Assembly: GCF_001940455.1 (NCBI RefSeq)
Contig: NZ_MKQR01000018.1
Location: 1 to 64,000 of the forward strand
Reading direction: 5' to 3'
Origin: Actinokineospora bangkokensis
Lineage (GTDB): Bacteria > Actinomycetota > Actinomycetes > Mycobacteriales > Pseudonocardiaceae
DNA length: 64,000 nt
In this document: positions 43,813 to 64,000 of the stretch, piece by piece
Numbering within the stretch: the stretch's first letter is position 1
Layout: the number at the start of each line of letters is the position of its first letter
Notes under the pieces: generated by a model
Seen by the model: only the letters and a program-made list of their open reading frames with translations
Told to the model about the DNA's origin: nothing
The model's database searches: none
Made by a program: the position numbers and the translations under genes

Positions 43813-44142
43813 TCAGTCGACCACCTCTGTGATCCTCAAGATGCCCACGGTGCGAGGTCCTTCGAGGACGAGGACGACAACGCCCACTTGGAGCTTGGGG
43901 CGCGCCAACTGCTCGGCCAGGAAGCCGACCCTTGTGGCAGACCAGTCACCGGGGACAGCGGGCTGGAGGAGAATGCTCAACCGCTCAGCGGACGGCTCGG
44001 ATTCGCGCTGCCCTTCCTGCGTGGTGAACTCGCAGGTCGCCGCATACACCGTCGCGGTGGGAGGGCCGGACACCCGGCCCCCCTCGGTCGCGTCGAGCCA
44101 GGCGACGGAACCGAAGGCGGCCGGGTGGTCGATGCGATTCAT
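43813..44142 (-). CDS. Probable immunity protein for the RHS toxin (109 aa)
   Basis: This 109-aa soluble protein begins MNRIDHPAAFGSVAWLDATE and has beta-rich segments TATVYAATCEFTTQEG, LSILLQPAVPGDW and LQVGVVVLVLEGPRTVGIL. It directly follows the RHS gene and its ATG overlaps that gene's stop (ATGA), the typical location of an RHS cognate immunity gene. The sequence is less GC-rich than the RHS shell, as is the toxin tip, consistent with exchange of the tip/immunity cassette as a unit. I recognise no immunity family; the assignment rests on position. Confidence 0.75.
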   Translation of the reverse strand: MNRIDHPAAFGSVAWLDATEGGRVSGPPTATVYAATCEFTTQEGQRESEPSAERLSILLQPAVPGDWSATRVGFLAEQLARPKLQVGVVVLVLEGPRTVGILRITEVVD

Positions 44143-50100: not shown

Positions 50101-50597
50101 TAGCTGCCCGCGATCGCGCTGTAGTCGACGTCGAGGGACAGCGGTCCGGTCACCTCACCGGACACCGGGGTGACCGTCATGAGCAGGCCGGGCACGCGCG
50201 CCCGGTCCGAGGCGGCCCGGTCGAGGGTTTCGAGCTTGACCCGACCGGGGGCGCCCTTCGCCGCGGCCCGGCCGAGCGTGGCCGGGCCCGCGGCGCGCGC
50301 GGTGGCGGCCAGGTCGACCTCGACGGCCGCGGCCGCGGGCCAGGCCACCGCCGGTGGGGTGGTCAACGCCTGCTTGACCGACTGCGGCGCGGGCAGCGGG
50401 CGCAGCGGGGCGGTCCCGCCGTCCACCGAGCGCTGCGCCTGGGTGCCGGGCAGGTTCCACCCCAGCCCGTGCCACCCCGACTGGTCCGGTGCGGCCAGCG
50501 CCGTCACCGCCGTGCTCAGCAGCAGCCCCGCCATCGCGACCGTGGTCGCGAGCGTCCGCCGCCGCCATCGTTGCGTGCCCGTCCTGCTCCGCGTCAT
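44139..50597 (-). CDS. Secreted RHS-repeat polymorphic toxin with variable C-terminal tip
   Basis: This 2152-aa protein has a signal peptide (TRSRTGTQRWRRRTLATTVA, hydrophobic stretch, cleavage near TALAAP), a SpvB/TcdB-like N-terminal region (about 240-800), a YD/RHS repeat shell (about 1000-1790) and the RHS core motif REYDPTIGRFTSVDP near 1800. After DPTGLFCDSCEF comes a Cys-rich pretoxin region (CDSC, CLLC, CDSCNGG) and a hydrophobic stretch WLIFGGVVAGTICAIAEPCG. The roughly 105-aa tip has YRTVDGREF, EGKWFALSGKDADKWG and GPGVYADQGMLERIN. The YR...GKWFALS pattern suggests an ADP-ribosyltransferase-like toxin, tentatively. The preceding gene encodes a LamG protein and the following gene a probable immunity protein. 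Confidence 0.87.
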   Translation of the reverse strand: MTRSRTGTQRWRRRTLATTVAMAGLLLSTAVTALAAPDQSGWHGLGWNLPGTQAQRSVDGGTAPLRPLPAPQSVKQALTTPPAVAWPAAAAVEVDLAATARAAGPATLGRAAAKGAPGRVKLETLDRAASDRARVPGLLMTVTPVSGEVTGPLSLDVDYSAIAGSYGADYGRRLTLVGYPGCILTTPDKPQCRVATKLPATNSLDNHVRGQATLPTAVTTTGSGDAQRKQLAATPMVVAAVPEASGGGGNLAATSLSPAGSWSAGGSSGAFTYDYPITLPAPPFGKAPGLSLDYSSGSVDGATSATNNQASWVGDGWGLSVGGYIERTYKSCAADLGGNNGQTKTGDQCWATDNASLSLGSASGPLVKDAATGAWHPKNDDGSRVERLTGANNGARDGEHWRVTTTDGTQYYFGLNRLPGWVAGKPETQSTNTVPVFGNNAGEPCNAATFAASWCQQAYRWNLDYVVDTNGNQITYYYQPEVNHYGRNLNTTSAGTAYTRGSYLLRMEYGLNSGVGGGAYGQAPARVVFDTAERCLPSGSVTCDPAQLTPANAASWPDVPADQICNQGATCQGVAPVFFTRKRLTAITTQVASGSGWADRDRWNLTHSFPATGDGGSPALWFSGITRTGLVGGSAGMPPTTFGGTAKSNRTYASQNYTSLSRYRITNVTGELGGTLTVDYSAPDCQGGAPTPATNTTLCYPVYWSPGSTPNPVLDWFNKYVVTDVYSDGRTVNSVQNRTHYDYEGGGAWHFDENTLGDPAYRTWSLWRGFADVTTTTGNPGDPAGPRTVVKHRFMRGMDGDKAATGTRSVQVTNSLNESIPDSDQHAGFTREAQSLLDGNVITTTLNDPWSSAATGTDAAGLRSFLTGTATSRTRTFINATNTWRTSRKVTTHNDKGLPTELQEEGDTADPGQTTCTRTAYVANTAAWIHSYPSSVQKVSGQCANNPAGPGNIIADTRNSYDGQAFGAAPTAGKTTQVASLSAWPTGGAEAFTTTSTSYDGTYGRPVSTTDALGRVSTVAYTPATGPVTKVTKTSPPVTISNVPTPLTSSTDYDPVSGLPVTETDPAGLRTDTAYDPLGRVTATWLPGHSRAGGAPADATFAYSVSTTAPNTTTSSRLLANGQYSATYTIIDGLGRTVQTQEPTSYSAGGRLVTDQFYDSQGRDWKKHDSYWNSAAPQGTLLVVQDSAVPRTTVNTYDSANRATRSAFQRNGQFQWETLTTYGGDRVTTIPPLGGTATATVNNGTGQRTKVLLFHNRLNTGPTDPADTTTFTYDRAGALATVTDATGQNTWSFTTDLRGYKVAQTDPDTGSSTYTYDNAGQLTSSTDARGKTIAYTYDNLGRKTASYDTNTSGTKLTQFVYDTLLKGKQTSAVRFSGGKAYVVAAAGYDAAGRSTGSKITIPSGETGLSGTYTFGVEYDPLTGAVTKESSPGIGGLPAETQFRSYNALGKPTDLYAANGGGGTGTHLVSLTEYNAFGQPLRVNLADQNDPNQVSTTWTYDDATGRLASSATVRATTTDQWVTNRGYTYTPSGSLTKITDVNDTQCFGYDHLQRLNRAWTPASGDCLAAPTTAGLGGAAPFWTDWTHDATGNRLTETDHTSAGDTTSTLTYPAAGAAKPHAVTSATTTGPGGTTTDSYTYDATGNTLTRAKGGTTHTFTYDAEGHVATATDNTGKQSSYLYDAAGNRLITRDHTGTTLAVGDTELFVAAGTTTASGTRFYAHGGTQVAVRTTAGLTWKVLDHHGTSTATVKASNLAVTRRYQDPYGNTRGTAPSSWSDKHTFIGGYQDTTTLVHVGAREYDPTIGRFTSVDPILDPDNPQSWNGYAYANNNPVDHADPTGLFCDSCEFLAGKPMSAWGCLLCSATAPPPSAPKSQGNTSTVSKCDSCNGGKGWASGHGGYPAKVGNNGKLALDVTKLATPPKLQDLRQHFYNDLGEWYPLVDHDYALDPLPGYEPPEELSNGTRWLIFGGVVAGTICAIAEPCGAIALGLIEATGPPVVVAPGGLVATAKGIHIVDEAISAGTKAETNAAKGANAASRAEGTAAGAEDMVSIYRTVDGREFDAIADAGNKFTLGAGQMEGKWFALSGKDADKWGQVMNGDDALTIETKIPRKLFDELHHETGNLDGIGPGVYADQGMLERINQYSQNVRIFGS

Positions 50598-50721: not shown

Positions 50722-53700
50722 TCAGGTGCCCGCCCTGAACAGGGCCCGCGGGTCGTCGGTGGTCTGGTCGTCCTTGATCTGCTTCTCCACGCGCAGCCCC
50801 GCGTAGAGCCGGATGCCCGCGAGGCCACCGCGCCACGGTGTCGTCGGGGTGCCGGAGGCGTTGCCCGCCCCGGCCACGACCTGGCCCCAGTTGTTCTGGC
50901 TGCTGACCCCGGTCGAGCACCCGGTCACCCCCTGCGCAGCGCCGGAGGACGTCCGCTCGGTGGCTTGGAGCTGGCCGTTGACCCAGAAGCAGGCGGTCTT
51001 GGTCGTGGCGTCGTAGCTGCCCGCCAAGTGCGTCCAGAGACCCGTCGGGGCGGCGTCGCTGAACAGCGTGCGCCCGCCGGGACCGGTGATGGTGAACGCC
51101 CACCGGCCACCCGCCTCCGAGCGCCGCTCCAGCGCCATCGGCGAGCCGGAGGCGTCGGCGATGGTCACCGCGGTGCCCGTGCCGGTGATGCCGTCGTCGC
51201 GCACCCACGCCTCGACCGTGTAGGACTTCGTGGTGTAGAGGAAGTCCGGTCGCGTCCAGGCCACCCGGCCACCGGAACCGGTGAACTCGGTGTAGGCGGC
51301 GTCGGCGGTGGCCACCTGCGCGACCGAGCCGCTTGCCGTGGCCGTCGGCGTGCCCAGGCTCCAGGTGCCGTTGGAGTAGGAGCGCCCGGCCAGGCCCGCG
51401 ACCTGGCTGGCCGTCAGCGCCCGCTGCCACAGCTGCACGTTGTCGATGTCGCCGTTGAACGGGTGCACCGGGTTGCCGCTGAACTCGTAGGCGCCCACGG
51501 TCACGTTGCCGGTCGCGTCCCAGGGCACCCCGCCGTAGGACCGCTGGGCGACCAGCACCCCGTCGAGGTACATCAGCAGCTGCTTGGAGTCGTTGTTGTA
51601 GACGCCGGTCACCATCGTCCACGTCCCCGTGGTGGTGGCGCTGCCGTCCCGGTACACCCAGTCGGTCGCCGTGGAGCTGGAGTCCTCGCGGTTGAGCCCG
51701 AAGATCCAGGCCTGCACGTCGGGCGAGTACCGCAGCTGGAAGCCCGGCCGGGTGGTGCCGGACTGGCCGACGACCGCCTGGTAGCCCTGCAGGCTGCCCA
51801 GCTTCACCCACGCCGAGACGGTGAACGACTGGGAGGTGTTGACCGCCCGGGAGGTCGAGTGGCTGAAGCTGCCGGTCGTGCCGTTGTAGCGCAGCGCGGT
51901 GCCGGTCTTGCCCGGCACCCACTGGGCGCCGGTGGTGATCATGTTGTTCTCGTAGCCCGCCCCGTTGTTGCTGGAGTCGGCGGTGGTCGTGCCGGTGCCC
52001 TCGTCGAACTTCCAGTAGCCCTGCAGCGAGGGCACCGGCGCGGGCACGTAGTCGCCGTCGAACTCGTTGCCGGTGGCACCGGTGGCCAGCTTCGGGCCCG
52101 CGCCCTCACCCAGGCCGTAGGCGGCGCGCGGGACGGCGGTGTTGGCCAGGTCGTGCACGTCCTGCGGGGACAGCACCCGCTGCCAGGCCTGGGCGTCGTC
52201 GACGGTGCCGGGGAAGTGGTCGACCCGGTTGCCGTTGTACTTGCCCGCGCCGAAGACGAACGGGCCGGTGGCGTTCCACGCCGCGGTCGACCCGGTCGCC
52301 GACCCGACCTTGCGGCCGTCGACGTAGAGGGAGACCTGCTTGGCGGGCGCGTCGTAGGTGGCGGTCAGGTGCGTCCAGGTGTTCAGCAGCGGCACCGCCG
52401 AGCTGTCCGAGGACGTGGCCACCGTGGCGGCGACGCCGGACTGGTCCGTGGAGGGCATCACGACGGCCCACTTGTTCTGTGTGTGGTTGTACTGCAGGAA
52501 GAACGAGCTGACGGAGTTCCCGTCCTGCGACAGCACGGTGTGGAAGGTGTTGGCGTCGGTCATGTACACCCACGCCGCCACCGAGAACGACTGCGCGGTG
52601 TTGAGCACCGGTGCCGAGGTCTCCAGGAACCCGGTGGAGGTCAGGAACATCCCGCCCCGGGTGCCGTCCTTGAGGCCCAGTTCGTCGGTCTGGGTCCAGG
52701 AGTTGCCCTTGCTCCAGCCCTGCGCCCACGCCGCGTCGCCGCGCAGCGCCAGCGGGTGCGGGGTCTGGCCGGGGTTGAGCGCGCCGACCTGGTCGCTGGC
52801 CGAGGTGCCCCAGGTGTCGTCGATCGACCAGGCGCCCTTGAGCAGGGCGGCCGAGGTCAGCGGGGCCACCACGTACGCGCAGGACGCGCCGCTGGCCACC
52901 AGGCCGCCCGCGCAGCTCGCGTTGGGCCCGGGGGTCCCCGCCTTGTTCACCGCGCGGACCTTCACCAGGTTCTGCGTGGCGTACACCGCGGTGGTGTTCA
53001 GCGCGGCGGTGGCGATCGGCTTGCCCGCGCTGTCGGTGCCCTGCACCGCCGCCACGGACGGGGAGCCCTGGGTCGACGGCTCGCTGCCGTCGGTGGTGTA
53101 GACGAACCGGTCGATGTCGTAGAAGCCGCTGGTGGCCATGTCGACCTTCACCGTGAACGCCGCGGTGTCACCCTGGTTCTGCGGGGAGTTGGACGGCGCC
53201 AGGACGGGGGCCAGCGGCACGGTGCTGTCCACGGAGAACTCGCAGTCCCAGTCCCACCGCGGCGACTCCCGCTCGCCGTCGGTGACCTTCACCGCCCACT
53301 TGTAGATGCCGTCGGCGCCGATCCACCCGGCGGGCACGGTCACCTGCGCCAGCGCCCCCGCGTTGGGGCCCGGGGTGCCGATCCACGGCACCGAGCTGAA
53401 GTTGTCGCGGTAGGAGCCGGGGGTGTCCTGGCCGTACGGGCCGCCGCTGGTGGCCACCTTCACCCCGAGCGAGCCGCCGTCGGGGTCGGACACCCAGGCC
53501 TGCACGGTCGGGGTCTTGGTGGCGATCCACGGCCGGTTGGCACCCTTGACGCACGGCACGGACCCGCGCTCCATCGCGTGCCCGACGGGGTTGTTGGGCA
53601 CGGAGTTGTAGTGCACCTCCAGGTAGGGGTTGAGCCCGAACCTGCGCCACGAGTAGGTGTTGCCCTCCTGCTCGCCCTTGAGCAGGAACGTGATGTCGGG

Positions 53701-55032
53701 CCACCCGCCCGCCGCCGACGAGGTCGCCGCCGCCGTCGCCGGGAACTGCATGGCGACGTTGGCCGCCTGGCCCTGGTTGGTGGTGTTGCTGTTGCCCTGG
53801 TAGACCCACCCGCCCGGCTGCGCGTTCCACGTCGTGCCGGGGCCGATCGGGTTCACCAGGTAGAGCTCGGTGGGCTTGGCGTTGGCCGACCCCCACCAGG
53901 AGTAGTTCAACGTCGTGTTCAACGTCGCCCACTTGATGTCCTTGCCCGCGATGGCGCTGCTGTTCATGCGCAGGTAGGTGCGGGAGATGCCGGAGGAGTC
54001 GGTGGTCTGGTACCCCGACTTCAGGTCGTTGAGCGAACCGCCGGTGGCGTTCCAGTTGGCCGCGTTCGGGTAGCCGGACTGCACCACGGTGTGCGCCGCC
54101 TTGCCGCATGCCGAGCAGCTGTAGTCGGGGTCCAGGAACACCGGGTAGGTGGTCGCCGGGTCGTTCAGGAAGGCCTGGTCCGGCACGATCGACACGGTGC
54201 CCGCGCCCAGCTCGGTGCCCATCGCCGCGGTGCGGCGGCCCTTGCCCGCGCCCCGGCCGCCGTCGTCACCGGAGTCCCACATCCGGGTGGAGCCGCCGGT
54301 GAACACCGGGGCGCCCGCGTCGTCCAGCACCTCCAGGTTCGGCTTGTCGGCGCTCGCCGCACCGGGGACGGCCCGCACCCGGGTGCCCTTGGTGTGCGAC
54401 CGGAACGACACCTTGCGCAGCGCGGGGTTGCGCGCGGCCTCGGCGCTCTTGACCACCAGGACCTCCGAGAACCCCAGGACGTCCGCGGTCACCCGCAGGT
54501 CCACGCCCGGCAGGACCTCGGGGTAGGTGGCGACGGGCCCGTCGAGCCGAGGCACCGGCAGGTCTGACGACCACCCGAGCCCCACCTCCTTGCCCTGGTG
54601 GGCCATGCGCACCAGGGGCTTGGCCGCGGAACCCGCACCACCCCCGGAGATCGCCAGGTCCACCGCGGCGGCCCGGGGCGCGATGGTCCCGTCCGACCGC
54701 ACCACCAGCGTGGTGTCCACCGGCGTCCACCCCGCCCCCGAGCGCACCCGCACCGGCCGCTCGTAGGAGCGCAGGGTGAAGCTGCCATCGGGGTTGGCGA
54801 CGACCTCCTCGGTCTCGGTCACCTTCCCGCCGACCACCACAGGAGCGCCCGACCGCCGGGCAGCCGCCTGAGCGGACACCTCGTCCACAGCTCCCGTCGC
54901 CGCAGCGGGTGCCGCGGTCCGCGTCTCAGCGGACGCGGGCACGACGACACCCACCACCGTCACCGCGGAAGCGCACAGCGCAGCCAGGAGTCCCCTGGAC
55001 AGGGACGTGCGCATGCCAAGTACAGCCTTCAC
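50722..55032 (-). CDS. Secreted protein with three LamG-like domains, RHS operon partner
   Basis: This 1436-aa secreted protein has a signal peptide (MRTSLSRGLLAALCASAVT, cleavage near VPASAE) and a long N-terminal half containing DNRLRE-like beta regions (SYERPVRVRSGAGWTPVDT; TYPVFLDPDYSCSACG). Three concanavalin-like LamG domains follow, near 811-964 (AQSFSVAAWVYMTD), 1054-1211 (SQSFTVSAWVKLGS) and 1254-1414 (KSYTVEAWVRDDG). LamG domains bind glycans or proteins. It immediately precedes the RHS gene, a pairing repeatedly seen in actinomycetes, and may anchor, deliver or present the toxin. GTG 55032, preceded by GGGGGC, was preferred; ATG 55014 is an alternative. Confidence 0.87.
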   Translation of the reverse strand: MKAVLGMRTSLSRGLLAALCASAVTVVGVVVPASAETRTAAPAAATGAVDEVSAQAAARRSGAPVVVGGKVTETEEVVANPDGSFTLRSYERPVRVRSGAGWTPVDTTLVVRSDGTIAPRAAAVDLAISGGGAGSAAKPLVRMAHQGKEVGLGWSSDLPVPRLDGPVATYPEVLPGVDLRVTADVLGFSEVLVVKSAEAARNPALRKVSFRSHTKGTRVRAVPGAASADKPNLEVLDDAGAPVFTGGSTRMWDSGDDGGRGAGKGRRTAAMGTELGAGTVSIVPDQAFLNDPATTYPVFLDPDYSCSACGKAAHTVVQSGYPNAANWNATGGSLNDLKSGYQTTDSSGISRTYLRMNSSAIAGKDIKWATLNTTLNYSWWGSANAKPTELYLVNPIGPGTTWNAQPGGWVYQGNSNTTNQGQAANVAMQFPATAAATSSAAGGWPDITFLLKGEQEGNTYSWRRFGLNPYLEVHYNSVPNNPVGHAMERGSVPCVKGANRPWIATKTPTVQAWVSDPDGGSLGVKVATSGGPYGQDTPGSYRDNFSSVPWIGTPGPNAGALAQVTVPAGWIGADGIYKWAVKVTDGERESPRWDWDCEFSVDSTVPLAPVLAPSNSPQNQGDTAAFTVKVDMATSGFYDIDRFVYTTDGSEPSTQGSPSVAAVQGTDSAGKPIATAALNTTAVYATQNLVKVRAVNKAGTPGPNASCAGGLVASGASCAYVVAPLTSAALLKGAWSIDDTWGTSASDQVGALNPGQTPHPLALRGDAAWAQGWSKGNSWTQTDELGLKDGTRGGMFLTSTGFLETSAPVLNTAQSFSVAAWVYMTDANTFHTVLSQDGNSVSSFFLQYNHTQNKWAVVMPSTDQSGVAATVATSSDSSAVPLLNTWTHLTATYDAPAKQVSLYVDGRKVGSATGSTAAWNATGPFVFGAGKYNGNRVDHFPGTVDDAQAWQRVLSPQDVHDLANTAVPRAAYGLGEGAGPKLATGATGNEFDGDYVPAPVPSLQGYWKFDEGTGTTTADSSNNGAGYENNMITTGAQWVPGKTGTALRYNGTTGSFSHSTSRAVNTSQSFTVSAWVKLGSLQGYQAVVGQSGTTRPGFQLRYSPDVQAWIFGLNREDSSSTATDWVYRDGSATTTGTWTMVTGVYNNDSKQLLMYLDGVLVAQRSYGGVPWDATGNVTVGAYEFSGNPVHPFNGDIDNVQLWQRALTASQVAGLAGRSYSNGTWSLGTPTATASGSVAQVATADAAYTEFTGSGGRVAWTRPDFLYTTKSYTVEAWVRDDGITGTGTAVTIADASGSPMALERRSEAGGRWAFTITGPGGRTLFSDAAPTGLWTHLAGSYDATTKTACFWVNGQLQATERTSSGAAQGVTGCSTGVSSQNNWGQVVAGAGNASGTPTTPWRGGLAGIRLYAGLRVEKQIKDDQTTDDPRALFRAGT

Positions 55033-55609
55033 GTGGAAGCCCCCAGAGCCATCCAGGCCCCATGCGGGACCCATTCGCCAAGACCGGGGAAGTGAAGCAC
55101 GAATAAAGCGAACGCGTAACTAGCCCATTGGAGTTACCCCGAACACCACGCGACACTGAAACAAGAATCAGTTCGGTAAAAACACACCGCAATATCGAGA
55201 AGGCGCCGACAACAGAGACTCCTCGATTTACCCGGCAGCAGGTCATCACTGTGATGACGCTGCGGTAGTCCCAGTAGCAGCGATGGCCCCAGCGCGTCGA
55301 GCAACCCGTTTGCGGGGGGTGCGGACCACCGCGAATAGTCCTCGCACGTTGGTGGACACCTGGCGCAGACACCAGATTGGTGTGGGCGTGGACGGCGGGG
55401 CAAGTGACCGGCTCCTGATCGGAGTCCCCAGCACCAGAGCCCTTCGGGCTCAAGCCGCGATCGCCCGTGATCAGGCATTCGCCCTCCCAGGCGGCCCACC
55501 TGAGTCCCGCGCTCGCGCGGCTGCCGATGATGGCTGCCGTCGTTTTGGGATGTTCCCCGTGGTTGCCCACTGGTCGTCCGACGGCGGAAACCCGCGCAAC
55601 GGGCCGCCA
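55033..55609. other. Leader and promoter region of the LamG-RHS operon
   Basis: No credible gene was found in these 577 bp. The 55100-55260 part is markedly AT-richer than the window average, as expected for the promoter and leader of the minus-strand LamG-RHS operon, and contains a perfect palindrome at 55242-55258. The 55280-55600 part is mixed in composition with no conserved frame and may be a decayed remnant. I could not place convincing -35/-10 elements. Confidence 0.55.
55242..55258. promoter_or_regulatory. Perfect palindrome, candidate operator of the LamG-RHS operon
   Basis: GTCATCAC-T-GTGATGAC is a perfect 8+1+8 palindrome about 210 bp before the LamG start, within the AT-richer leader region. 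Its size and symmetry suit a dimeric GntR- or TetR-type regulator. No regulator gene lies beside it. Confidence 0.5.
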
Positions 55610-55831
55610 TCACTGGTTCTCGATCTTGACGAGTTCCAGCAGATCACGTCGGACAGCGGCGGGCTTGGCCGCGAAGATGCAGCGCCACAGCAGCGAGGCC
55701 GCCACGGGGAGGGCCGTCGCCACCAGTGCGGCGGCGTACAGCCAGGACGACCCGGTGGTGACGGCGGCACCGACCAGGGCAGAGGGGGTAGCCGCGAATG
55801 CGGCTCCGGACAAGGCGTGTCGCTTCTTCAT
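55610..55831 (-). CDS. Small putative membrane protein (73 aa)
   Basis: The predicted product begins MKKRHALSGAAFAATPSALV and has one or two hydrophobic segments (SALVGAAVTTGSSWLYAAAL; ALPVAASLLW) and a basic-acidic tail ending RRDLLELVKIENQ. This is the pattern of a small integral membrane protein with a cytoplasmic tail. The ATG at 55831 has no clear ribosome site; in-frame starts at 55885 and 55912 are possible. It is divergent from the HTH-receiver gene and upstream of the LamG-RHS operon on the same strand. Function and even expression are uncertain. Confidence 0.5.
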   Translation of the reverse strand: MKKRHALSGAAFAATPSALVGAAVTTGSSWLYAAALVATALPVAASLLWRCIFAAKPAAVRRDLLELVKIENQ

Positions 55832-55965
55832 GCCCAGAGAGTGCGGCCGCACCGATGACGTCTCGAACGACTTGAGCGGTGACATCCCGGTGACCCCCGC
55901 CAGGACCGTCACCGCGGGCGCGCGCGACTGGTCACCAAGCCGTCATCCTCCCTGCTCGGCCTCGT

Positions 55966-55971
55966 TATGAT
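55966..55971 (+). promoter_or_regulatory. -10 element for a probable leaderless transcript
   Basis: TATGAT lies exactly seven bases before the A of the ATG at 55978, so transcription would begin at the start codon itself. No Shine-Dalgarno is present. A weak -35 candidate lies near 55942-55948. Leaderless genes with this spacing are common in actinomycetes. Confidence 0.65.
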
Positions 55972-55977
55972 CACCGC

Positions 55978-56937
55978 ATGCGGGCGCCCCTGTCGAGCGG
56001 TTTTCGCGTGGCCATCCTCGGCCCACCGACCGTCCTGCTCCCTGACGGGGAGCGCACGGCCCTGCGCAAGCTCAACGCCGACCTGCTCGTCGCGCTGGCC
56101 CTCGCGGGCCCGGCGGGGCGGACGAAGGCGTGGTTGCACGAGGCGATCTGGGGCCCGCAGGAGAGCAACCACGTGGCCAAGGCCGTCAGCAGGTTGCGGC
56201 GGATCGTCGATGTCGCGTCCCCCCCGGCGGGCGGCCCGTACGTGCTCAAGGTGGATGTGGCGGAGATCGACGCGTGGGCGTTCCGGAGCGGGGTTGACGA
56301 GCTGACAGCGGGGTCGGCGGTCGAGGAGGTCGATGCGCTGCTCGGGATGTGGCGGGGCAACCCCGCGGACAACCAGTTGGCCATCCGGGCGGGGGCGTGG
56401 GTGGAGGTGATGTCCGCCAGGAACCGGTTGGTCGACCACGTCCTCGGCATGACCAGCGGCGCACGGGCGGGGTTGACCCGGTGGGCGGCGTTCTGCGAGG
56501 TGTTCCACCGGGAGTCGGGGCGCTGGTCGGGCGCGTCAGCCGCGCGACCGGACCGCAAACGGGTCCTGGTGGTCGACGACCTGATCGGGCAGAGCGTGGC
56601 ACTGGTCCTCGGGGCTCGCTACGACTGCCACGTGGTGGAGTCGATCGCGCAGTGGAACACGATGGTGCGGGAGCAGCACCCGCTCGACTTCGCCTGCGCG
56701 CTGGTCGACCGCCACCTCACCGACGGCATGGCCGACGCCTACGGCGAAGCCGTCGTGCGAGACCTGCGCGCGCTGCGACCGGGCATGCCGATCGCCTTCA
56801 TGTCGGCGGGGCTCCCGCACGGCGACCTGGACAACATCAAACTCCGGCTGGGCGTGGACAGCGTGATCATCAAGGCGAACGACGAGCACGGCCCGCTGAC
56901 CGACCTGCTGGACACCGTCGACCGCCTGACCAGGTGA
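55978..56937 (+). CDS. Regulator with N-terminal winged helix and C-terminal receiver domain
   Basis: This 319-aa protein has a SARP/OmpR-like winged helix at about 8-78 (RKLNADLLVALALAGPAGRT, KAVSRLRRIV), a helical linker (80-190) and a response-regulator receiver (194-319). Key receiver residues are intact: acidic pair Asp200/Asp201, phospho-acceptor Asp244 in ALVDRHL, Ser276 in AFMSAG and Lys299 in VIIKAND. Output-before-receiver order is the reverse of normal response regulators. It converges, five bases apart, with a gene for an HATPase-domain protein that could be its kinase. The start codon follows a TATGAT box at leaderless spacing. Confidence 0.8.
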   Translation: MRAPLSSGFRVAILGPPTVLLPDGERTALRKLNADLLVALALAGPAGRTKAWLHEAIWGPQESNHVAKAVSRLRRIVDVASPPAGGPYVLKVDVAEIDAWAFRSGVDELTAGSAVEEVDALLGMWRGNPADNQLAIRAGAWVEVMSARNRLVDHVLGMTSGARAGLTRWAAFCEVFHRESGRWSGASAARPDRKRVLVVDDLIGQSVALVLGARYDCHVVESIAQWNTMVREQHPLDFACALVDRHLTDGMADAYGEAVVRDLRALRPGMPIAFMSAGLPHGDLDNIKLRLGVDSVIIKANDEHGPLTDLLDTVDRLTR

Positions 56938-56942
56938 TGTGG

Positions 56943-59405
56943 TCAGTCCGCCAGCGGTAGCCAGATCGCCACGTGGGCGCCGCCGAGGCTCGACCGGGTG
57001 CCGAGCACCTTTAGGCGGCCCCGGCTCGCCTGCAGGTTGCGCTGGACCAGCCGCAGCCCCTCCCCGCCGGGCATCCCGGCGCGGTGGCGCGCGTGGTCCA
57101 ACTCGACCCTGGGGACGTTGCCGAAGCCAGGGCCGCTGTCCTCGATGTCGACCACCGCGAACCGCTCCACCGCGTCGGTGCGGTGGCGCACGGTGACGCG
57201 CACGACGCGGCGGGGCGAGTCCGCGCCGCGCATGGCCTGCTCGGCGTTGTGCAGCAGGTCGACCACGGCCAGCCGGACGAGCAGTTCGACGGCGTGGACG
57301 ACGGCGTGGCCGTCGGTGTGGTCGACCAGGGTCACCGCCATCCGCCCGGCGGCCTTCTCCACCTCCACCTGGACCGCGACCAGGTCGATGAGGTCGACGT
57401 CGGTGGCGCGCAGCAGCGAGTTGACGTCGTGGCGCTCGATGGCCTCGACCTGCGCGATGAGCTCGTGGTGCGTGGCTATCCTGCGCTCGAGCCGCTGGCG
57501 CCTGGTCGGCTCGCTGGTGCGGCCGAGCTCCTCCTCCAGCAGGCCCAGGGAGTACTCGTAGCCGCTGCGGACGTGCCGGTTCTGCCGCTCGGTGCGGGCC
57601 AGCAGGACCAATCGCGCGTGTTCTTCGACCTCGTCGACATCCCGGTGCAACCGGTGCAGCTCCGCCACCGCCCACGACGTGAGGTGCTCCCCGGCGAGCA
57701 GGGTCACCAATCCCTGACCCGGCAGCCCGATCTCGGTGCCGGGCAGGGCGAGACCGACGTCCTCCAACCTGAGCACGGCCGCGTCGACGTCGAGCCGCGC
57801 CTGGTCGAGGTACCACTCCGGGGCGCGGCCCCAGTCGCGCTCGTACTCCACCATGAACTGCAGGGTCAGCTGCTCCACCTCGTGGTCCAGCTCGCCGTGC
57901 GGAACCCGGTCGCGCCCGAGGCGAGCGGCGCAGAGCAGCAGCGCGGCGCACACCACCCCCGCCGCCCGGTCGTCGACCAGCGGTGCGAACACCGCCGCGC
58001 GCACGGCCTCCACCGAGTCGACGTCCGACCGCAGCTCGGTCAGGTCGTCGTGGGTGAGCCTGCCCGGCCTGCGCACGACCTGGCTGAGCTTGCGCAGCAC
58101 CGCGGCCAGGGCGGCGGGCACCTCGGCGGTGTAGTACATCACCATGTCCGGCACCTCGGGCGAGGCGCGCAGCCCCAACAGGTCGAACACCCACAGCAGG
58201 GTGGCGCGGACAGCGGCGCGGTCATCCAGGCTCTCGTCGAGCGGGCGCACCACCCGGTCGAAGGACAGCTGGGCGCAGACGGCGCGGAGAACGTTGATCT
58301 TGCGCCACCTCGGGGTCGGCGCCCGGCCCGCGAGATCACGTTCCATCAACCGGAACAGCAACCGCGGCTCCAGCCGGGCCACGCCGTCCGGCGCCTCGCC
58401 GCCCCCCGCGGTGTCCAACCACAGCACCGTGCTCCCGTCCGGAACCGGGGCGTCCGGACCGATGTGCAGCGGCAGGCTCCTCGGCAGCGCCAGCCAGTCC
58501 AGGCCGAAGTCGTGGAAACCGTGGAGCGCCACCGTGAACCCCTGCCCGGCCCTGGTGACGCGGTGCTTGATCGGGGACTCCTCGACCGCGCCGTCGAGCG
58601 CGTCGGCCAACTCCAGTGCGGACCGCTCGTCCACGGCCTCGTGGACAGCGGCCAGGGCCGCGATCAACCGACGCCCCGGCTCGTCGACGGGCAGGTGCAG
58701 CTCGAAATCAGGGGGCGCCTTCTCCACGCCGGTGAACCACCTCAGCACCAGCGGGTCGGAGAACCGCCCGTACTCCCACCGAGGCGGGTTGGCCACGGCG
58801 GTCGGGTTGCCCCGCCAGGACTCGGTGTCGAGGTCGGTGACGATCCGCTGGGCGACCGCGTACTCCCCGGCCTCCAGGCACGCTTTCGCGCCCGCTCGCC
58901 GTTCGGCGTCGAGACCGTCGAACCCCGCCTCGATGCTCGCGCGCAGCTCCGAGGTCAGGCTGTCGAGCTGTGCCCGGAATTCCTCCAGCGCGGCCTTGGC
59001 CTCGCTCTCGGAGTCCTCGACGAGGGCTGCCCAGGGCTGCTCGGCCTCGGACAACCCCAGCGCCCGGGCCCTGATCTCCAGCCGGTGGGCCAGTGGTCGC
59101 AGCTCGGCGCGGACCCCCGCGACCCGGCGGTGGACCCGGCCGGTCAGCTCGGCGGTCTCCTCAGCGGAAAGGCCGAGCCCGGGCAGGGCCAGCATCCGCT
59201 TGGCGGCCGCGAAGTCCCCGCTGTCGATCAGCCGCTGCACGCCGTCACCCACATCGGCCACCGGCCGGAGCAGGTCATCGAGCAACGCCTCGGCCGCATC
59301 GGCGTCAACCCCGTTCGCGGCGACGGCGAACAGCCGCGGCCGCCGCCACGCCGCCCTCGCCTGCCCGGCCACCTCCGCCAGGAGTCGCTCGTCAGCCCCG
59401 CTCAC
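56943..59405 (-). CDS. Large protein with C-terminal histidine-kinase-type ATPase domain
   Basis: This 820-aa soluble protein ends in a GHKL ATPase domain: N-box DLLHNAEQAMRG near 715, G1 box DIEDSGPGFGNV near 750 and G2 box GGEGLRLVQRNL near 778. A helical segment before it (ERRIATHHELIAQVEAIERH, near 650) holds adjacent His residues that could be phosphorylated as in a dimerisation/phosphotransfer domain. The first 600 residues are helical, with no membrane segments or recognised sensor domain. GTG 59405 overlaps the PLD-like gene by 14 bp. It may be an atypical cytosolic kinase for the convergent receiver protein, or an ATPase of the helicase system. Confidence 0.75.
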   Translation of the reverse strand: MSGADERLLAEVAGQARAAWRRPRLFAVAANGVDADAAEALLDDLLRPVADVGDGVQRLIDSGDFAAAKRMLALPGLGLSAEETAELTGRVHRRVAGVRAELRPLAHRLEIRARALGLSEAEQPWAALVEDSESEAKAALEEFRAQLDSLTSELRASIEAGFDGLDAERRAGAKACLEAGEYAVAQRIVTDLDTESWRGNPTAVANPPRWEYGRFSDPLVLRWFTGVEKAPPDFELHLPVDEPGRRLIAALAAVHEAVDERSALELADALDGAVEESPIKHRVTRAGQGFTVALHGFHDFGLDWLALPRSLPLHIGPDAPVPDGSTVLWLDTAGGGEAPDGVARLEPRLLFRLMERDLAGRAPTPRWRKINVLRAVCAQLSFDRVVRPLDESLDDRAAVRATLLWVFDLLGLRASPEVPDMVMYYTAEVPAALAAVLRKLSQVVRRPGRLTHDDLTELRSDVDSVEAVRAAVFAPLVDDRAAGVVCAALLLCAARLGRDRVPHGELDHEVEQLTLQFMVEYERDWGRAPEWYLDQARLDVDAAVLRLEDVGLALPGTEIGLPGQGLVTLLAGEHLTSWAVAELHRLHRDVDEVEEHARLVLLARTERQNRHVRSGYEYSLGLLEEELGRTSEPTRRQRLERRIATHHELIAQVEAIERHDVNSLLRATDVDLIDLVAVQVEVEKAAGRMAVTLVDHTDGHAVVHAVELLVRLAVVDLLHNAEQAMRGADSPRRVVRVTVRHRTDAVERFAVVDIEDSGPGFGNVPRVELDHARHRAGMPGGEGLRLVQRNLQASRGRLKVLGTRSSLGGAHVAIWLPLAD

Positions 59406-62400
59406 GGATCCCCCAATCGAGGATGTCCTTCATCGAATCCAACGCGTGGTCGGTCAGGTGGCGCTCGGGGGCCGGGTGCGAGGCCAGGTCGGCGCGCAGG
59501 TGAGACCACAGGTCGGCCAGCGCGACGGCGAACGGGCGCGTCACCTCGACCTGGTGCCTGCCCTCGGCCGAGTTGCCGGTGGCGAACGCGGCGACGACCT
59601 GCGCAGCATCCCGCACAGCGCTGAGGCGGTTCAGGTAGGCCCACCGCTTGGTGCTGTGGATCGTGTTCTTCTTGTGCCCGATCGCCACCACACCCGCCGA
59701 CGTCCTGTCGAGGAACGCGGGCAGGTTCCCCACTTCGGGCCGCTGGACCCACTCCGCGGCGGCCGTGAGGTCCCTGCGGTCGATGATGTCCTGGAGATGC
59801 CCGAACAGGCCGTTGGGGTGGAACAGGCGACCGTGGGTCTTGATGCCGACCTCGAAGGTGAAGAGCACCTGGGCCGCGGCCGCCTGCGCCTCGGCCGCCG
59901 CCTCCCACGCCTCGGCCAGTGCGCTCTCGCGCCTGTGCTTGAGCAGCTCGACGCGCGCCAGGGCAGCGGCGCCCGGGTCGTCCACGGCGGGCGGCAGGTC
60001 CACGACGGCCCTGGCCAACCTGCGCCAGCACCTCGCCATGCCCTCGGTCCCCTCCAGCGAGCGCAGCACCTCCCGCAGCTCGTGCGCGACATCCGCCCGG
60101 ACCACCGACCGCGGCCCGCCCGGCCAGGCCAACACCTGGGAGGTGGCGTGGGCGATGAGCGCTGCGGCGACGGCGGGGGTCAGGTCGTCCTCCACCGCGG
60201 CGGTCGACAGCGCCTCCGCGACCCAGTCCGTCCCGGCAGCGGCCCCCGCGAAGCACAACGCCTCCGGCAGGGGGGAAGCAGGCTGGGACAGCCGCAGCAC
60301 CCACGCCTCCACGAAGCGGCGCTCGGCCCACAGGTCCTCGATGAGCCAGTGGGCCCACTGGACCAGGTCTTGCGGGACCGCCGCGAGGCGACCCCGCAGA
60401 GCCGCCGCCGTGACCAGGCGCAGGACATCGGTGCTCGCTCCGACGACCCGCAGTTCCGACAACAACGTCGCCGGGCTCGACCCCGCCCCCACCGCGTCGA
60501 CGACCAGGTCGGCCCTCGCCGCCGGGTCGGTGCAGGCGTCCAGCTCCGCCAGCAATCGATGACCACGCGTGCTGACGCCGTCGAGCGCGGGGACGGTCCG
60601 GCGACGGGGTGCCACGGAGACCCCGCCCAGTTCGGCGGCGACGCGGCTCGCCACGTCCCCGCCGGAGATCCGCACGCTCAACTCAGCGGGCAGCCTCCGG
60701 CCGGGTCCGGCGCTGTGGAAGCCCTCGTGGGCCAGGAAGTCGAAGCTGCCGATGACGGCGTCGTCATCGCAGACCAGTGCTCGTGACGTGGCCTCGACCC
60801 TGCGCGAGCGCAGCAGCGCCGACGACCCCTCGGCGGCCGCGGCCAGTTCCAGCCTGGCGTCGTCGGAGCCCTTTTCCACGTACCTGTGGAACACGTCCAC
60901 GCGGGTGCCCAAGGCCACCCGCTCGCGAACCAGGTCCAGCAGCCGCTTGTTCACGACCTTCGACGACAGCCGCTCCCCGGAGACCACCACCTGCCGGGTC
61001 GCGGCGCGGAGGCCGTCCCAGAACGCGTCCCGGTGCCCGGTGTCCTCGACGAGGGTGGCCGAGGGCAGCGTCCGCCCGGCCAGCACCCTCGTCACCTCGG
61101 TGGTGCACCGGCGCCAGGCCAGTGCCCATGCCCTGGCCGTGGCATCGGCGGCGGTGACGTCCTGGTCGAGCGGGGTGGGCAGGGGCAGCCAGGTGAGGCC
61201 CGCCGAGGCGGGGGGCGGGGGGTCGGGGCGGAAGTCCCTCGTGCGGAAGCGGACCGCTGCGGCGGTCACCGCGTCGGGGGCGGCCGTGCGGGCCCAGCGC
61301 AGCAGCTCCCCGGCGAACTGGCAGGTGCCGGACCCCGACGCGGAGATGACGGCGGCGAGGTGGTCGGCTCCCCTGTCGAGCTTGCCGAGGAAGGAGTACC
61401 CGCCGAGGAGGGCGGTGTGGTCGTCGGCGACCACGAAGTTCGCGTTCACGTTCGAGGGCTTGCGCGCCACCAGCACGTTCGAGTCGTTGAGGTGGTGGTC
61501 GGCCGCCCGCAGCCGGAGTTCCTGGAACGCGTTGTCCACCCTGTCGTCGGCGGCCTCCGCGCGCCGCCGGTTCCACAGGAGCACGAGCTGGACACCGTGC
61601 AGCACGGCGTCCTGGAGCGCGGGCAGCAGGTCGGCCACGCCCTCGTAGCGCAGGGAGGAGACCACGATGACCAGCTGCCGCTCGGCGCGGCGGATGACCG
61701 AGCGCACCGCCTCGCGGTGGTCGGCGCACGAGCGCACCAGGTCGACCTGGACCTCCCCGTCCACGCGGGCGGCGATTTGGTTCCTGGTGGTGGCGATGGC
61801 GTCTTCCAGCTGCTGGTGCAGCGCGGTCCTCGTTCCTGCCGCGGCGGTCTGCGCGTCCTCGGTCAGGGCGAGCAGCTTGTCGATGCTCCGGTCGAGCGAC
61901 GGGGGATCGGCCAACCTGGACTCCGCGGTCCCGCGCACCTTGGCGGCGAAGGCGTGCCGCGGGCGCTGCTGGATGAACTGGCCGAGGAGCCTGCCGATCC
62001 GCTGGTACTGCGCGGCGCTGCGGAAGGAGTCCTCCGCGGCGGTCACCCGCAGGTCACCGCTCACCGGGTCCTCGCGGGCGGTGATGTCGATCGGGAACCA
62101 CGCCCTCCTGACCGCAGCGGGTGCGAGGGCCGCGGGGACGATCCTGGTCTCCAGGACGCGCTGGGCGCGCCCCTGCGGCTTGGCAGGCTCGTCCGGGGAC
62201 GACCGGTCGAGCCTGCGCTCGCGCAGCAGCTCCTCCACAGCGCGCACGACGGCACCGCCGCTCACCTTGTCGACGGTGGCGTTGAACAGGCGATCACCGG
62301 GCACGACCACGTCGCGGCTCGGCGGGTGGGAGTAGCCCGCCCGCCCGGTGAGGTGGCCGCTGACGCGGTCGAACCACAGGTCGACGGTCTCCAGCGTGTA

Positions 62401-62763
62401 CTCGCCACCCTCCAGCTCGCGCTCACCGCCTGCTTGGAAGATCCGCACGATGTCCGGCGTCGGCGCGACCAAGCCGCGGTAGAGGTCGAGGCTGACGTAC
62501 TCGCGCCGCCAGAGGTCGAAGATCAGGTCGAGGGTCATCCGCTCGCCCAGGTTGAACCGGTCCACCAGGGTGCTCAGCCCTATGCCCGCGCGCTCGGCGG
62601 GCACCGCCGCCCGCTCGGTCTCCCCCGGCTCCCGCCTGGACAGCCACAGCAGCACGATCCCGCGCAGCACCGAGGTCTCGATCCTGGACAGCTCCGTGCC
62701 GTACCCGAGCCGGATGCGGACCTGGACGGACTCGTACGGGAGGAACACCCGGATGCCGGGCAT
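59392..62763 (-). CDS. PLD-fold protein with degenerate active sites (1123 aa)
   Basis: The N-terminus (about 1-110) looks like a winged-helix region (LRGIVLLWLSRREPG; LVDRFNLGERMTLDLIFDLW). Two phospholipase-D-like halves follow: one near 441 with NANFVVADDHTALLGG, where the HxK of the HKD motif reads NxN, and one near 664 with LVCDDDAVIGSFDFL, lacking HxK. Upstream of each is a typical fold segment (LVIVVSSLRYEG; QVVVSGERLSS). The last 400 residues are helical. The start overlaps the helicase stop (TGATG). Loss of HKD histidines suggests nucleic-acid binding or scaffolding and not phosphodiesterase activity, though alternative chemistry cannot be excluded. Confidence 0.72.
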   Translation of the reverse strand: MPGIRVFLPYESVQVRIRLGYGTELSRIETSVLRGIVLLWLSRREPGETERAAVPAERAGIGLSTLVDRFNLGERMTLDLIFDLWRREYVSLDLYRGLVAPTPDIVRIFQAGGERELEGGEYTLETVDLWFDRVSGHLTGRAGYSHPPSRDVVVPGDRLFNATVDKVSGGAVVRAVEELLRERRLDRSSPDEPAKPQGRAQRVLETRIVPAALAPAAVRRAWFPIDITAREDPVSGDLRVTAAEDSFRSAAQYQRIGRLLGQFIQQRPRHAFAAKVRGTAESRLADPPSLDRSIDKLLALTEDAQTAAAGTRTALHQQLEDAIATTRNQIAARVDGEVQVDLVRSCADHREAVRSVIRRAERQLVIVVSSLRYEGVADLLPALQDAVLHGVQLVLLWNRRRAEAADDRVDNAFQELRLRAADHHLNDSNVLVARKPSNVNANFVVADDHTALLGGYSFLGKLDRGADHLAAVISASGSGTCQFAGELLRWARTAAPDAVTAAAVRFRTRDFRPDPPPPASAGLTWLPLPTPLDQDVTAADATARAWALAWRRCTTEVTRVLAGRTLPSATLVEDTGHRDAFWDGLRAATRQVVVSGERLSSKVVNKRLLDLVRERVALGTRVDVFHRYVEKGSDDARLELAAAAEGSSALLRSRRVEATSRALVCDDDAVIGSFDFLAHEGFHSAGPGRRLPAELSVRISGGDVASRVAAELGGVSVAPRRRTVPALDGVSTRGHRLLAELDACTDPAARADLVVDAVGAGSSPATLLSELRVVGASTDVLRLVTAAALRGRLAAVPQDLVQWAHWLIEDLWAERRFVEAWVLRLSQPASPLPEALCFAGAAAGTDWVAEALSTAAVEDDLTPAVAAALIAHATSQVLAWPGGPRSVVRADVAHELREVLRSLEGTEGMARCWRRLARAVVDLPPAVDDPGAAALARVELLKHRRESALAEAWEAAAEAQAAAAQVLFTFEVGIKTHGRLFHPNGLFGHLQDIIDRRDLTAAAEWVQRPEVGNLPAFLDRTSAGVVAIGHKKNTIHSTKRWAYLNRLSAVRDAAQVVAAFATGNSAEGRHQVEVTRPFAVALADLWSHLRADLASHPAPERHLTDHALDSMKDILDWGIRERG

Positions 62764-64000
62764 CAGATCGCCTCCGGGTCATCGGCGGGCACCACGGTGC
62801 CGAATCGCTCGACGAGGGCGCACACGTCCGACCACATGGGACCGCCGTGGTCGTGGAAGTGCTGGAAGGCGCCCACGATGACCAGGTGTTCGCGGGCGCG
62901 GGAGAACAGCACGTTGACCAGCTCCGGCTCGTGCAGGTGCCCGATGTTGGCCCAGGGGCGGTCAGCGGAGTCCGGCCTGGCCCGGTCGCGCACCAGCGAC
63001 ACCACGACGACGTTGGCCTCGCGCCCTTGGAAGGCGTGGATGGTCGAGACGTGCGGGCGGGTCTCAGCCCAGGAGTTGAACTGCTCCACCTGCCTGCGGT
63101 AGGGGGTGAGCACGGCGATGGGGTGGTCGCCGTACCCGTGGCGGCCGCGCGCGGGCTCAGGGCTGAGCGACCTGAGGAAGGACCGCACGACCTGGACCTC
63201 GCCCGGGTTCTGCCAGGCCGGTTGCTCCGCGCAGGAGGGCACGGCGCTGGTGTCGAGCCAGACGACCGAGCGCCGTGCCGCGACCCGCGGGTGGCGCAGC
63301 ACGGGAACGTCATCGCGGCCGGTGGCCAGCATGCCCTCGGCGTCGAGGTCGACGTGCCCGTCGGAGCCCGCCTGCTCCACCGGGTAGAAGGCCCTGCTGA
63401 CGATCTCGCAGATGTCCGGTCGCATCCGGTACTGGGTCCGCAGGGTGTGCCGGGGCGGTCGTGCGACGGGCTTGGGCCCGTCGACGAAGAGGTTGCCGAA
63501 GAGGTCGAACACCTTGACGTAGTCGTCCTTGCGGTTCCCGTGCACCAGCAGGTCGTCGTCGGTCGAGGCCGCGCAGCGGTCCAGGAACTGCACGATCTCC
63601 CGCCTGCGGTGCGCAGGCAGCTGCCGGTGGTCGCCGACCAGCGCCCACCGGGTGCCGCGGCTCAGCGGGATCGCCAGCTCGGTGGGCCAGGCCTTGGCGG
63701 CCTCCTCGATGACGACCAGGTCGAAGATGTCGGTGGCCGCCGAGCGCTCGAGCGCCGACGGGGTCGCCGACGAGCAGGTGGCGAAGACCAGGTTCGCGGC
63801 CCGCTGCACCCGGTCGATCAGCTCGGGCAGGCCGTCGCGGATCGCCGCCTCCCACCCGCTGAGCAGCAGCGGGGTGCCGATGTCGTTCTCCGCCTCCGCC
63901 TCCGCCAGGAGTTCCCTGGTGCGCTTGAGGATGTCGCCCTGGCGCAGTTCGGCCAGGTTGTTGATCAGGAACGGCGCGATCGCGCTGTCGACCTTGTCCT
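62763..64000 (-). CDS. UPF1/DNA2-like SF1 helicase (N-terminus beyond window)
   Basis: At least 411 C-terminal residues are present; the frame stays open to the window edge, so the Walker A part lies outside. Visible SF1 motifs: Walker B-like DLVVIEEAAKAWPTE, motif III GDHRQLP, TQYRMRPDICEIVSRAFYP (motif IV region), TPYRRQVEQF, motif V TIHAFQGREANVVVVSLVRD and motif VI NVLFSRAREHLVIVG. These match DNA2/NAM7-type 5'-3' helicases acting on RNA or DNA. Its stop overlaps the start of the PLD-like gene (TGATG), so the two are co-translated. Confidence 0.87.
   Translation of the reverse strand, partial: DKVDSAIAPFLINNLAELRQGDILKRTRELLAEAEAENDIGTPLLLSGWEAAIRDGLPELIDRVQRAANLVFATCSSATPSALERSAATDIFDLVVIEEAAKAWPTELAIPLSRGTRWALVGDHRQLPAHRRREIVQFLDRCAASTDDDLLVHGNRKDDYVKVFDLFGNLFVDGPKPVARPPRHTLRTQYRMRPDICEIVSRAFYPVEQAGSDGHVDLDAEGMLATGRDDVPVLRHPRVAARRSVVWLDTSAVPSCAEQPAWQNPGEVQVVRSFLRSLSPEPARGRHGYGDHPIAVLTPYRRQVEQFNSWAETRPHVSTIHAFQGREANVVVVSLVRDRARPDSADRPWANIGHLHEPELVNVLFSRAREHLVIVGAFQHFHDHGGPMWSDVCALVERFGTVVPADDPEAI

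Follow-up and report, generated by a model that had tools for sequence, protein, structure and literature searches.

How does a locus that joins a nucleic-acid helicase and a phospholipase D (PLD)-like protein to a two-component pair work, and which known system does it derive from? This question is raised by four genes at the end of a 64,000-nucleotide stretch of Actinokineospora bangkokensis DNA (the window), which is bases 1-64000 of contig NZ_MKQR01000018.1 (307,652 bases long) in a genome of 7.45 Mb. Three of the genes lie on the minus strand and encode a superfamily 1 (SF1) helicase homologous to MkoA (62763-66440 of the contig, with the 3' part, 62763-64000, in the window), a PLD-like homologue of MkoB of 1123 amino acids (aa; 59392-62763), and an 820-aa GHKL histidine kinase (56943-59405). 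The fourth gene, found as an open reading frame (ORF) on the plus strand, encodes a 319-aa response regulator and is convergent with the kinase gene (55978-56937). We read this as a Mokosh-derived, defense-type locus whose nuclease output would have been replaced by a two-component relay, and our confidence in this reading comes close to even without quite reaching it.

The layout of the locus was rechecked with the ORFs. The four genes were at the coordinates given in the initial annotation and showed the overlaps it had listed: the kinase and mkoB ORFs overlap by 14 bp, and the mkoB and helicase ORFs by 1 bp (TGATG). The convergent kinase and receiver genes are separated by 5 bp. When the locus was extended past 64000, the helicase gene was found to be complete at 66440 and to encode 1225 aa, with a kinase-like N-terminal domain that lies outside the window. 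Genes were called with a simple script trained on the window genes, and gene starts are approximate. Between the window copy and Streptomyces cacaoi, dN/dS was 0.47-0.63 for all four genes.

The helicase matched the PADLOC model for MkoA (PDLC03920) over nearly its full length (residues 41-1219, E 5.8e-226) and Pfam AAA_11 and AAA_12 (E 5.8e-29 and 1.5e-28). Its SF1 helicase motifs are intact, with Walker A starting at residue 740. The N-terminus matched Pfam Pkinase at E 2e-4, which is under the Pfam cut-off. In this domain HRN (from 182) replaces HRD and RFE (from 205) replaces DFG and, therefore, it looks like a pseudokinase. The two-gene MkoA of R. etli is similar (HRN, GFE), and HRD is kept in the actinobacterial two-gene MkoA proteins of genomes G387 and G088. 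The window thus has the SF1 helicase with a kinase-like, here degenerate, N-terminus that marks Mokosh type I. The initial annotation was right about the SF1 helicase, but its view that this helicase type matched nothing known gave way to the MkoA assignment. An identity as PLuB was also considered and rejected, as the NCBIfam match scored 64 bits where the cut-off is 999, and the name was not among the literature matches listed.

The PLD-like protein, encoded next to mkoA as in Mokosh type I, matched the PADLOC MkoB model (PDLC03922) over residues 4-712 (E 3.8e-106). It is about 400 aa longer than the part that matches two-gene MkoB. For comparison, 12 two-gene loci were used as controls: 10 plasmid loci, taken from 51 plasmid records with a two-gene MkoB, and the loci of G387 and G088, the two further genomes from the phylum search with an MkoB match over most of the model. 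MkoB is 466-622 aa long in these controls (n=12). A pattern check showed that both HKD motifs are lost in the window MkoB, in line with the degenerate PLD protein described in the initial annotation. The HKD pattern was found in 0 of 10 kinase-linked MkoB proteins versus at least one copy in 12 of 12 controls (both copies in 10, one copy in 2). The MkoB of Streptomyces sp. TRM49041 keeps the His and has lost the Lys at the first HKD place. Kinase and receiver profiles matched none of the 12 control loci in the 11.7-16 kb around each. Compared to Mokosh type I, then, the window locus has lost the HKD motifs, carries an MkoB about twice as long, and has gained a kinase and a receiver. Since the catalytic HKD motif was looked for in the kinase-linked MkoB proteins and was absent, we did not file the locus as a plain Mokosh member.

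The kinase gene is a regular part of this arrangement. Ten distinct loci were collected: those of the window, G047, G113 (Klenkia soli), G142 (Mycolicibacterium sp. P1-5), G718, G779, S. cacaoi, Streptomyces sp. TRM49041, Actinacidiphila acididurans and Nocardia gamkensis. All 10 have mkoA, mkoB and the kinase gene in the same order, a departure from the two-gene layout of Mokosh type I, and in all 10 the ORFs of the kinase and mkoB overlap (for S. cacaoi, this holds only when the longest start is taken). Five of the nine loci beyond the window have a receiver, and identities to the window proteins were 19-67%. The initial annotation had made the grouping of the genes depend on their co-occurrence in other genomes, and the nine further loci with MkoA, MkoB and the kinase bear the grouping out. 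The receiver gene, present in 6 of the 10 loci, lies on the strand opposite to the kinase gene, and the two always meet tail-to-tail, at a spacing of -17 to +14 bp; the receiver profile gave no match in the stretches of the other four. This spacing, seen in 6/6 loci, leaves no space for a terminator, and mutual antisense transcription is possible.

The arrangement occurs patchily. A search of 200 order genomes detected MkoB in four (the genome studied here, G047, G113 and G142), with the kinase gene adjoining in each, and none of the four same-genus genomes in that sample has MkoB. A single-sequence kinase search of the same 200 genomes found three matches, full length in our genome and in G047 and one weak and ordinary. 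In 394 genomes of the class, a kinase profile gave at least four full-length matches (our genome, G142, G718 and G779), each beside MkoAB; two candidates per genome were scored, which makes this a lower bound. Scanning genome contigs with an MkoB alignment gave 35 pattern matches and six confirmed loci, an incomplete yield that missed G047, G718 and G779. At the level of the phylum, 26 of 396 genomes matched MkoB; the matches examined were our genome, G387, G088 and three N-terminal-only places, and the rest were mostly partial PLD matches. A tblastn search of 72,556 plasmid records for this variant returned only weak matches, three for the kinase and one for MkoB (E 0.1-0.8).

The kinase-linked MkoA proteins formed one clade with 100/100 support, apart from the two-gene MkoA proteins. 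The midpoint-rooted tree had 14 rows (10 kinase-linked and four two-gene), and its two-gene rows drew a warning of long branches. Should the root lie between the kinase-linked and the two-gene rows, HKD loss and kinase gain would be one event and not ten.

The kinase has a mostly helical N-terminal part of about 570 aa, followed by a DHp-like hairpin (573-656) and a CA ATPase domain (about 665-820). The ATP-site residues of the CA domain are present (N720, D756, G758, G760, G781 and G783), and both sequence and fold matches span the DHp plus CA of sensor kinases. The GHKL ATPase domain named in the initial annotation was therefore correct but incomplete, as the matches cover a histidine kinase transmitter with its ATP-site boxes. 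H611, a candidate phospho-acceptor, sits in helix 573-629.

The response regulator consists of a winged helix-turn-helix (wHTH) domain (about 16-79), a middle segment that we take, from its resemblance and with no tool match, to be partly BTAD-like, and a receiver (about 196-302). D200/D201, D244, S276 and K299 are present, so the receiver is intact as had been claimed, and the acidic pair, the Asp and the Lys expected of a two-component receiver are kept in all six receivers. A profile of the six matched MtrA (2gwr) at E 8.6e-9 over the receiver and weakly over the wHTH. With the single sequence, Pfam matches were subthreshold (0.044 and 0.036).

What follows the kinase differs between relatives. 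The receiver protein of G047 carries a bDLD3 domain (E 1.4e-14) where the others have the wHTH, and Pfam found no wHTH in it. A gene near it encodes a TCAD9-bDLD3 protein (bDLD3 E 2.3e-23). In Actinacidiphila, an S1/weak TIR_2 gene and an 8xMP membrane gene lie beside the receiver gene, and the receiver locus of Klenkia carries a protein-kinase gene. The four receiver-less loci (G142, N. gamkensis, G718 and G779) form one clade with 100/100 support inside the kinase-linked MkoA clade, and their kinases keep the ATP-site residues. In all four, a caspase-like/STAND/WD40 gene lies directly upstream of mkoA and overlaps its longest ORF (L022:2559-6401, L029:2485-6315, L094:15011-18829 and L095:3-3686, one per locus). 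The caspase-like residues, a His in GHG/SHG and a Cys in E-T/S/A-C, are conserved in 4/4. The caspase assignment was made by eye. Pfam, run on three of the four genes, named only the remainder, as WD40 repeats and an AAA_16/STAND region; all four were aligned, with the G779 copy truncated at the end of its stretch. At L022 and L029, a gene that looks by eye like an alpha/beta-hydrolase gene stands just before the caspase-like gene.

These data suggest an HKD-less Mokosh variant that would signal alarm instead of cutting. In the mechanism we propose, a complex of MkoA, as SF1 helicase and pseudokinase, and MkoB, as a pseudo-PLD scaffold, would recognize nucleic acid that is abnormal, for example RNA or DNA intermediates of a phage; the identity of this core comes from homology. 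The large N-terminal part of the kinase would then pick up target engagement or ATP cycling. The kinase would autophosphorylate on a His of its DHp, probably H611, and the phosphate would move to D244 of the receiver, as the folds and residues of both proteins would permit. Finally, the output domain of the receiver would act. The wHTH of the window protein would probably switch transcription, plausibly of the receiver gene itself and of the divergent gene for a small hydrophobic protein. In G047 the output would be the death-like bDLD3, matching that of its neighbor, and in the sister clade the caspase-like/STAND/WD40 gene would stand in with no receiver. Given the wHTH, bDLD3 and caspase-like/STAND/WD40 variants, the core would, therefore, be a sensor with exchangeable outputs. 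We hold tentatively, somewhat short of an even chance, that the Mokosh pair is a nucleic-acid sensor with a swappable output, which gave up its nuclease for signaling from kinase to receiver and in one sublineage changed to caspase-like/STAND/WD40. In that case the locus would encode a two-component alarm that works inside the cell, has no nuclease and is set off by viral nucleic acid. The role in signal-gated nucleic-acid surveillance put forward in the initial annotation is possible on this evidence.

If true, this would be a testable case of a cutting immune system turning into a signaling one, and a bacterial two-component system would have gained an intracellular nucleic-acid trigger. Should the nuclease-dead lineage still protect, the conserved role of MkoB would be in scaffolding or sensing, with cutting as one replaceable output.

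Another possible explanation, which we consider unlikely, is that the two-component pair controls how the mko genes are expressed, while MkoAB still acts on nucleic acid through the helicase or a non-canonical site in MkoB. The intact helicase motifs would fit this, as would the wHTH of the window receiver and the position of its gene, apart on the other strand. However, the overlap of the kinase and mkoB ORFs in 10/10 loci, the coincidence of HKD loss with the kinase, the death-like domain in place of a wHTH (by Pfam) in the G047 receiver, and the retention of a kinase-like protein without a receiver in the caspase clade all speak against a purely regulatory pair.

Several observations weigh against the relay itself. 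The loss of HKD may leave room for a non-canonical nuclease in MkoB. The structural matches of the kinase cover mainly residues 599-820, which leaves its N-terminal part of about 570 aa largely without a match. Of 13 structural rows for HK853, five place 611 on residue 260 at a root-mean-square deviation of 6.3-6.8, four begin in another register, and four cover the CA domain only. In the WalK, EnvZ and CpxA rows, what we take to be their phospho-acceptor His falls 5-7 residues before 611. An HxxxN/G motif in the DHp stretch was found in 6/6 kinases with a receiver and in 0/4 without, but this motif was picked after inspection of the sequences. MAFFT placed the six HxxxN/G His residues in three columns within six positions, and two of the four receiver-less kinases retain a His among those positions. 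Since loss of the motif and loss of the receiver are a single event on the tree, they count as one observation only. The small gene proposed as a target was recognized in only three of the six receiver loci, in one of them weakly. No defense gene was recognized by eye in the flanks of the locus, where no PADLOC scan was run.

The uncertain phospho-acceptor bears on a second alternative, which seems to us distinctly unlikely: that the GHKL protein works as MORC or Hsp90 proteins do, as a structural ATPase switch, and the receiver as a phosphorylation-independent adaptor, with no His-Asp transfer. Structural rows and alignment columns differ on where the phospho-His of the window kinase lies, the caspase clade lacks HxxxN/G yet has the ATP-site residues, and passages of PMC8195603 describe receivers without histidine kinases in conflict systems. 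The matches to both DHp and CA of sensor kinases, and the retention of the receiver Asp, Lys and acidic pair in 6/6, favor a phosphorelay instead. That the locus is not anti-phage at all, and serves in surveillance of host RNA or DNA or as a block on plasmids or competitors, would agree with the flanks without defense genes recognized by eye and with literature passages that show no test of Mokosh in actinobacteria, but it is improbable, as both the patchy occurrence (MkoB in 4/200 order genomes and 0/4 same-genus genomes) and the effector-like neighbors (caspase-like, bDLD3 and 8xMP) suit conflict systems better than housekeeping.

How much of the arrangement is new was judged by comparison to known systems. 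The initial annotation had stated that the locus matched no known system and had proposed a search of defense collections. In that search, PADLOC placed the helicase and the PLD protein, adjoining as in Mokosh type I, in Mokosh, so this statement stands only for the kinase and the receiver. No PADLOC 2.0 (2023) model matched any of the seven kinases scanned, and none matched the window response regulator. The kinase and receiver are a part of the locus that is not listed in PADLOC 2.0; the models used pick out MkoA and MkoB only, and the kinase and receiver go unseen, as does the caspase-like alternative. Two-gene Mokosh loci differ in keeping at least one HKD (12/12) and in having no kinase or receiver nearby (0/12). 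According to a passage in PMC11291487, which cites earlier work, Mokosh degrades foreign viral transcripts.

The resemblance to DISARM noted in the initial annotation, a helicase plus a PLD protein, did not hold up: among the four window proteins, with the flanks outside the scan, DrmC alone was matched, at E 0.003, with no DrmA or DrmB at E up to 1. Detocs systems have three genes, for a sensor kinase, a receiver and a receiver-effector, and are not known to include a helicase or PLD protein; their best-described effector degrades ATP. The window locus differs in having one receiver, with a wHTH (bDLD3 in G047), together with helicase and PLD genes, and within the surrounding 20 kb the profile matched a single receiver gene. 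The likeness is in the relay of histidine kinase and receiver between sensing and effector, as described in the parts of PMC11249213 that we consulted. The bDLD3 of the G047 receiver and its neighbor, and the TCAD9 of the neighbor, recall the bDLD3/ternary conflict systems covered in passages of PMC7159879 and PMC8195603, but the sensor here would be MkoAB with a histidine kinase. No MoxR-vWA core was seen by eye near G047, and no search was aimed at it. Titles and abstract openings in the Mokosh and Detocs literature, a set thin in subscription papers and bioRxiv, did not describe this arrangement. Burroughs and Aravind reportedly described histidine-kinase-based immune systems in J Bacteriol in 2020, and that account could already include it.

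The small hydrophobic protein (73 aa; 55610-55831, minus strand), divergent from the response regulator, is a candidate fifth gene. Homologues in the same divergent place were found in S. cacaoi (55% identical) and, weakly, in Streptomyces sp. TRM49041 (30%). A profile of the protein found it in 1/200 order genomes, our own. Its hydropathy is modest, with a 19-residue maximum of 1.83 in the window and 1.52 in S. cacaoi. The region between the small gene and the response regulator gene (55832-55977) is a possible operator, judging by its letters. Words like GTCACCGCG/GGTGAC were seen by eye there and in another divergent intergenic region, L024:16940-17140, and are possible operators; the short repeats in 55832-55977 were listed with no test against chance. 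One promoter-like match near the start of the response regulator was not used.

Adjoining the locus in the window, both on the minus strand, are genes for a 1450-aa protein with laminin-G-like domains (50722-55074) and a 2152-aa RHS-repeat protein (44139-50597). ARAGORN called a tRNA-Gly (ccc) on the plus strand at 50386-50476, inside the start of the latter ORF, and this is probably a false positive. Beyond mkoA, the contig has genes named by eye as TetR-like and SDR-like. A search for an empty site, using one downstream flank and the upstream laminin-G protein against 16 same-genus genomes including our own, gave scattered partial matches only. The genome also contains a second Mokosh-like pair (L098, contig C4:5000-20000; 5211-6335 and 6332-9118, minus strand). 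In this pair, the 928-aa helicase is of the MkoA type by PADLOC (E 7.3e-55) and gave no kinase match in Pfam at E 0.001; its 374-aa partner matches only the N-terminal region of MkoB (E 2.4e-13). Such N-terminal-only MkoB matches were also found in G438 and G355.

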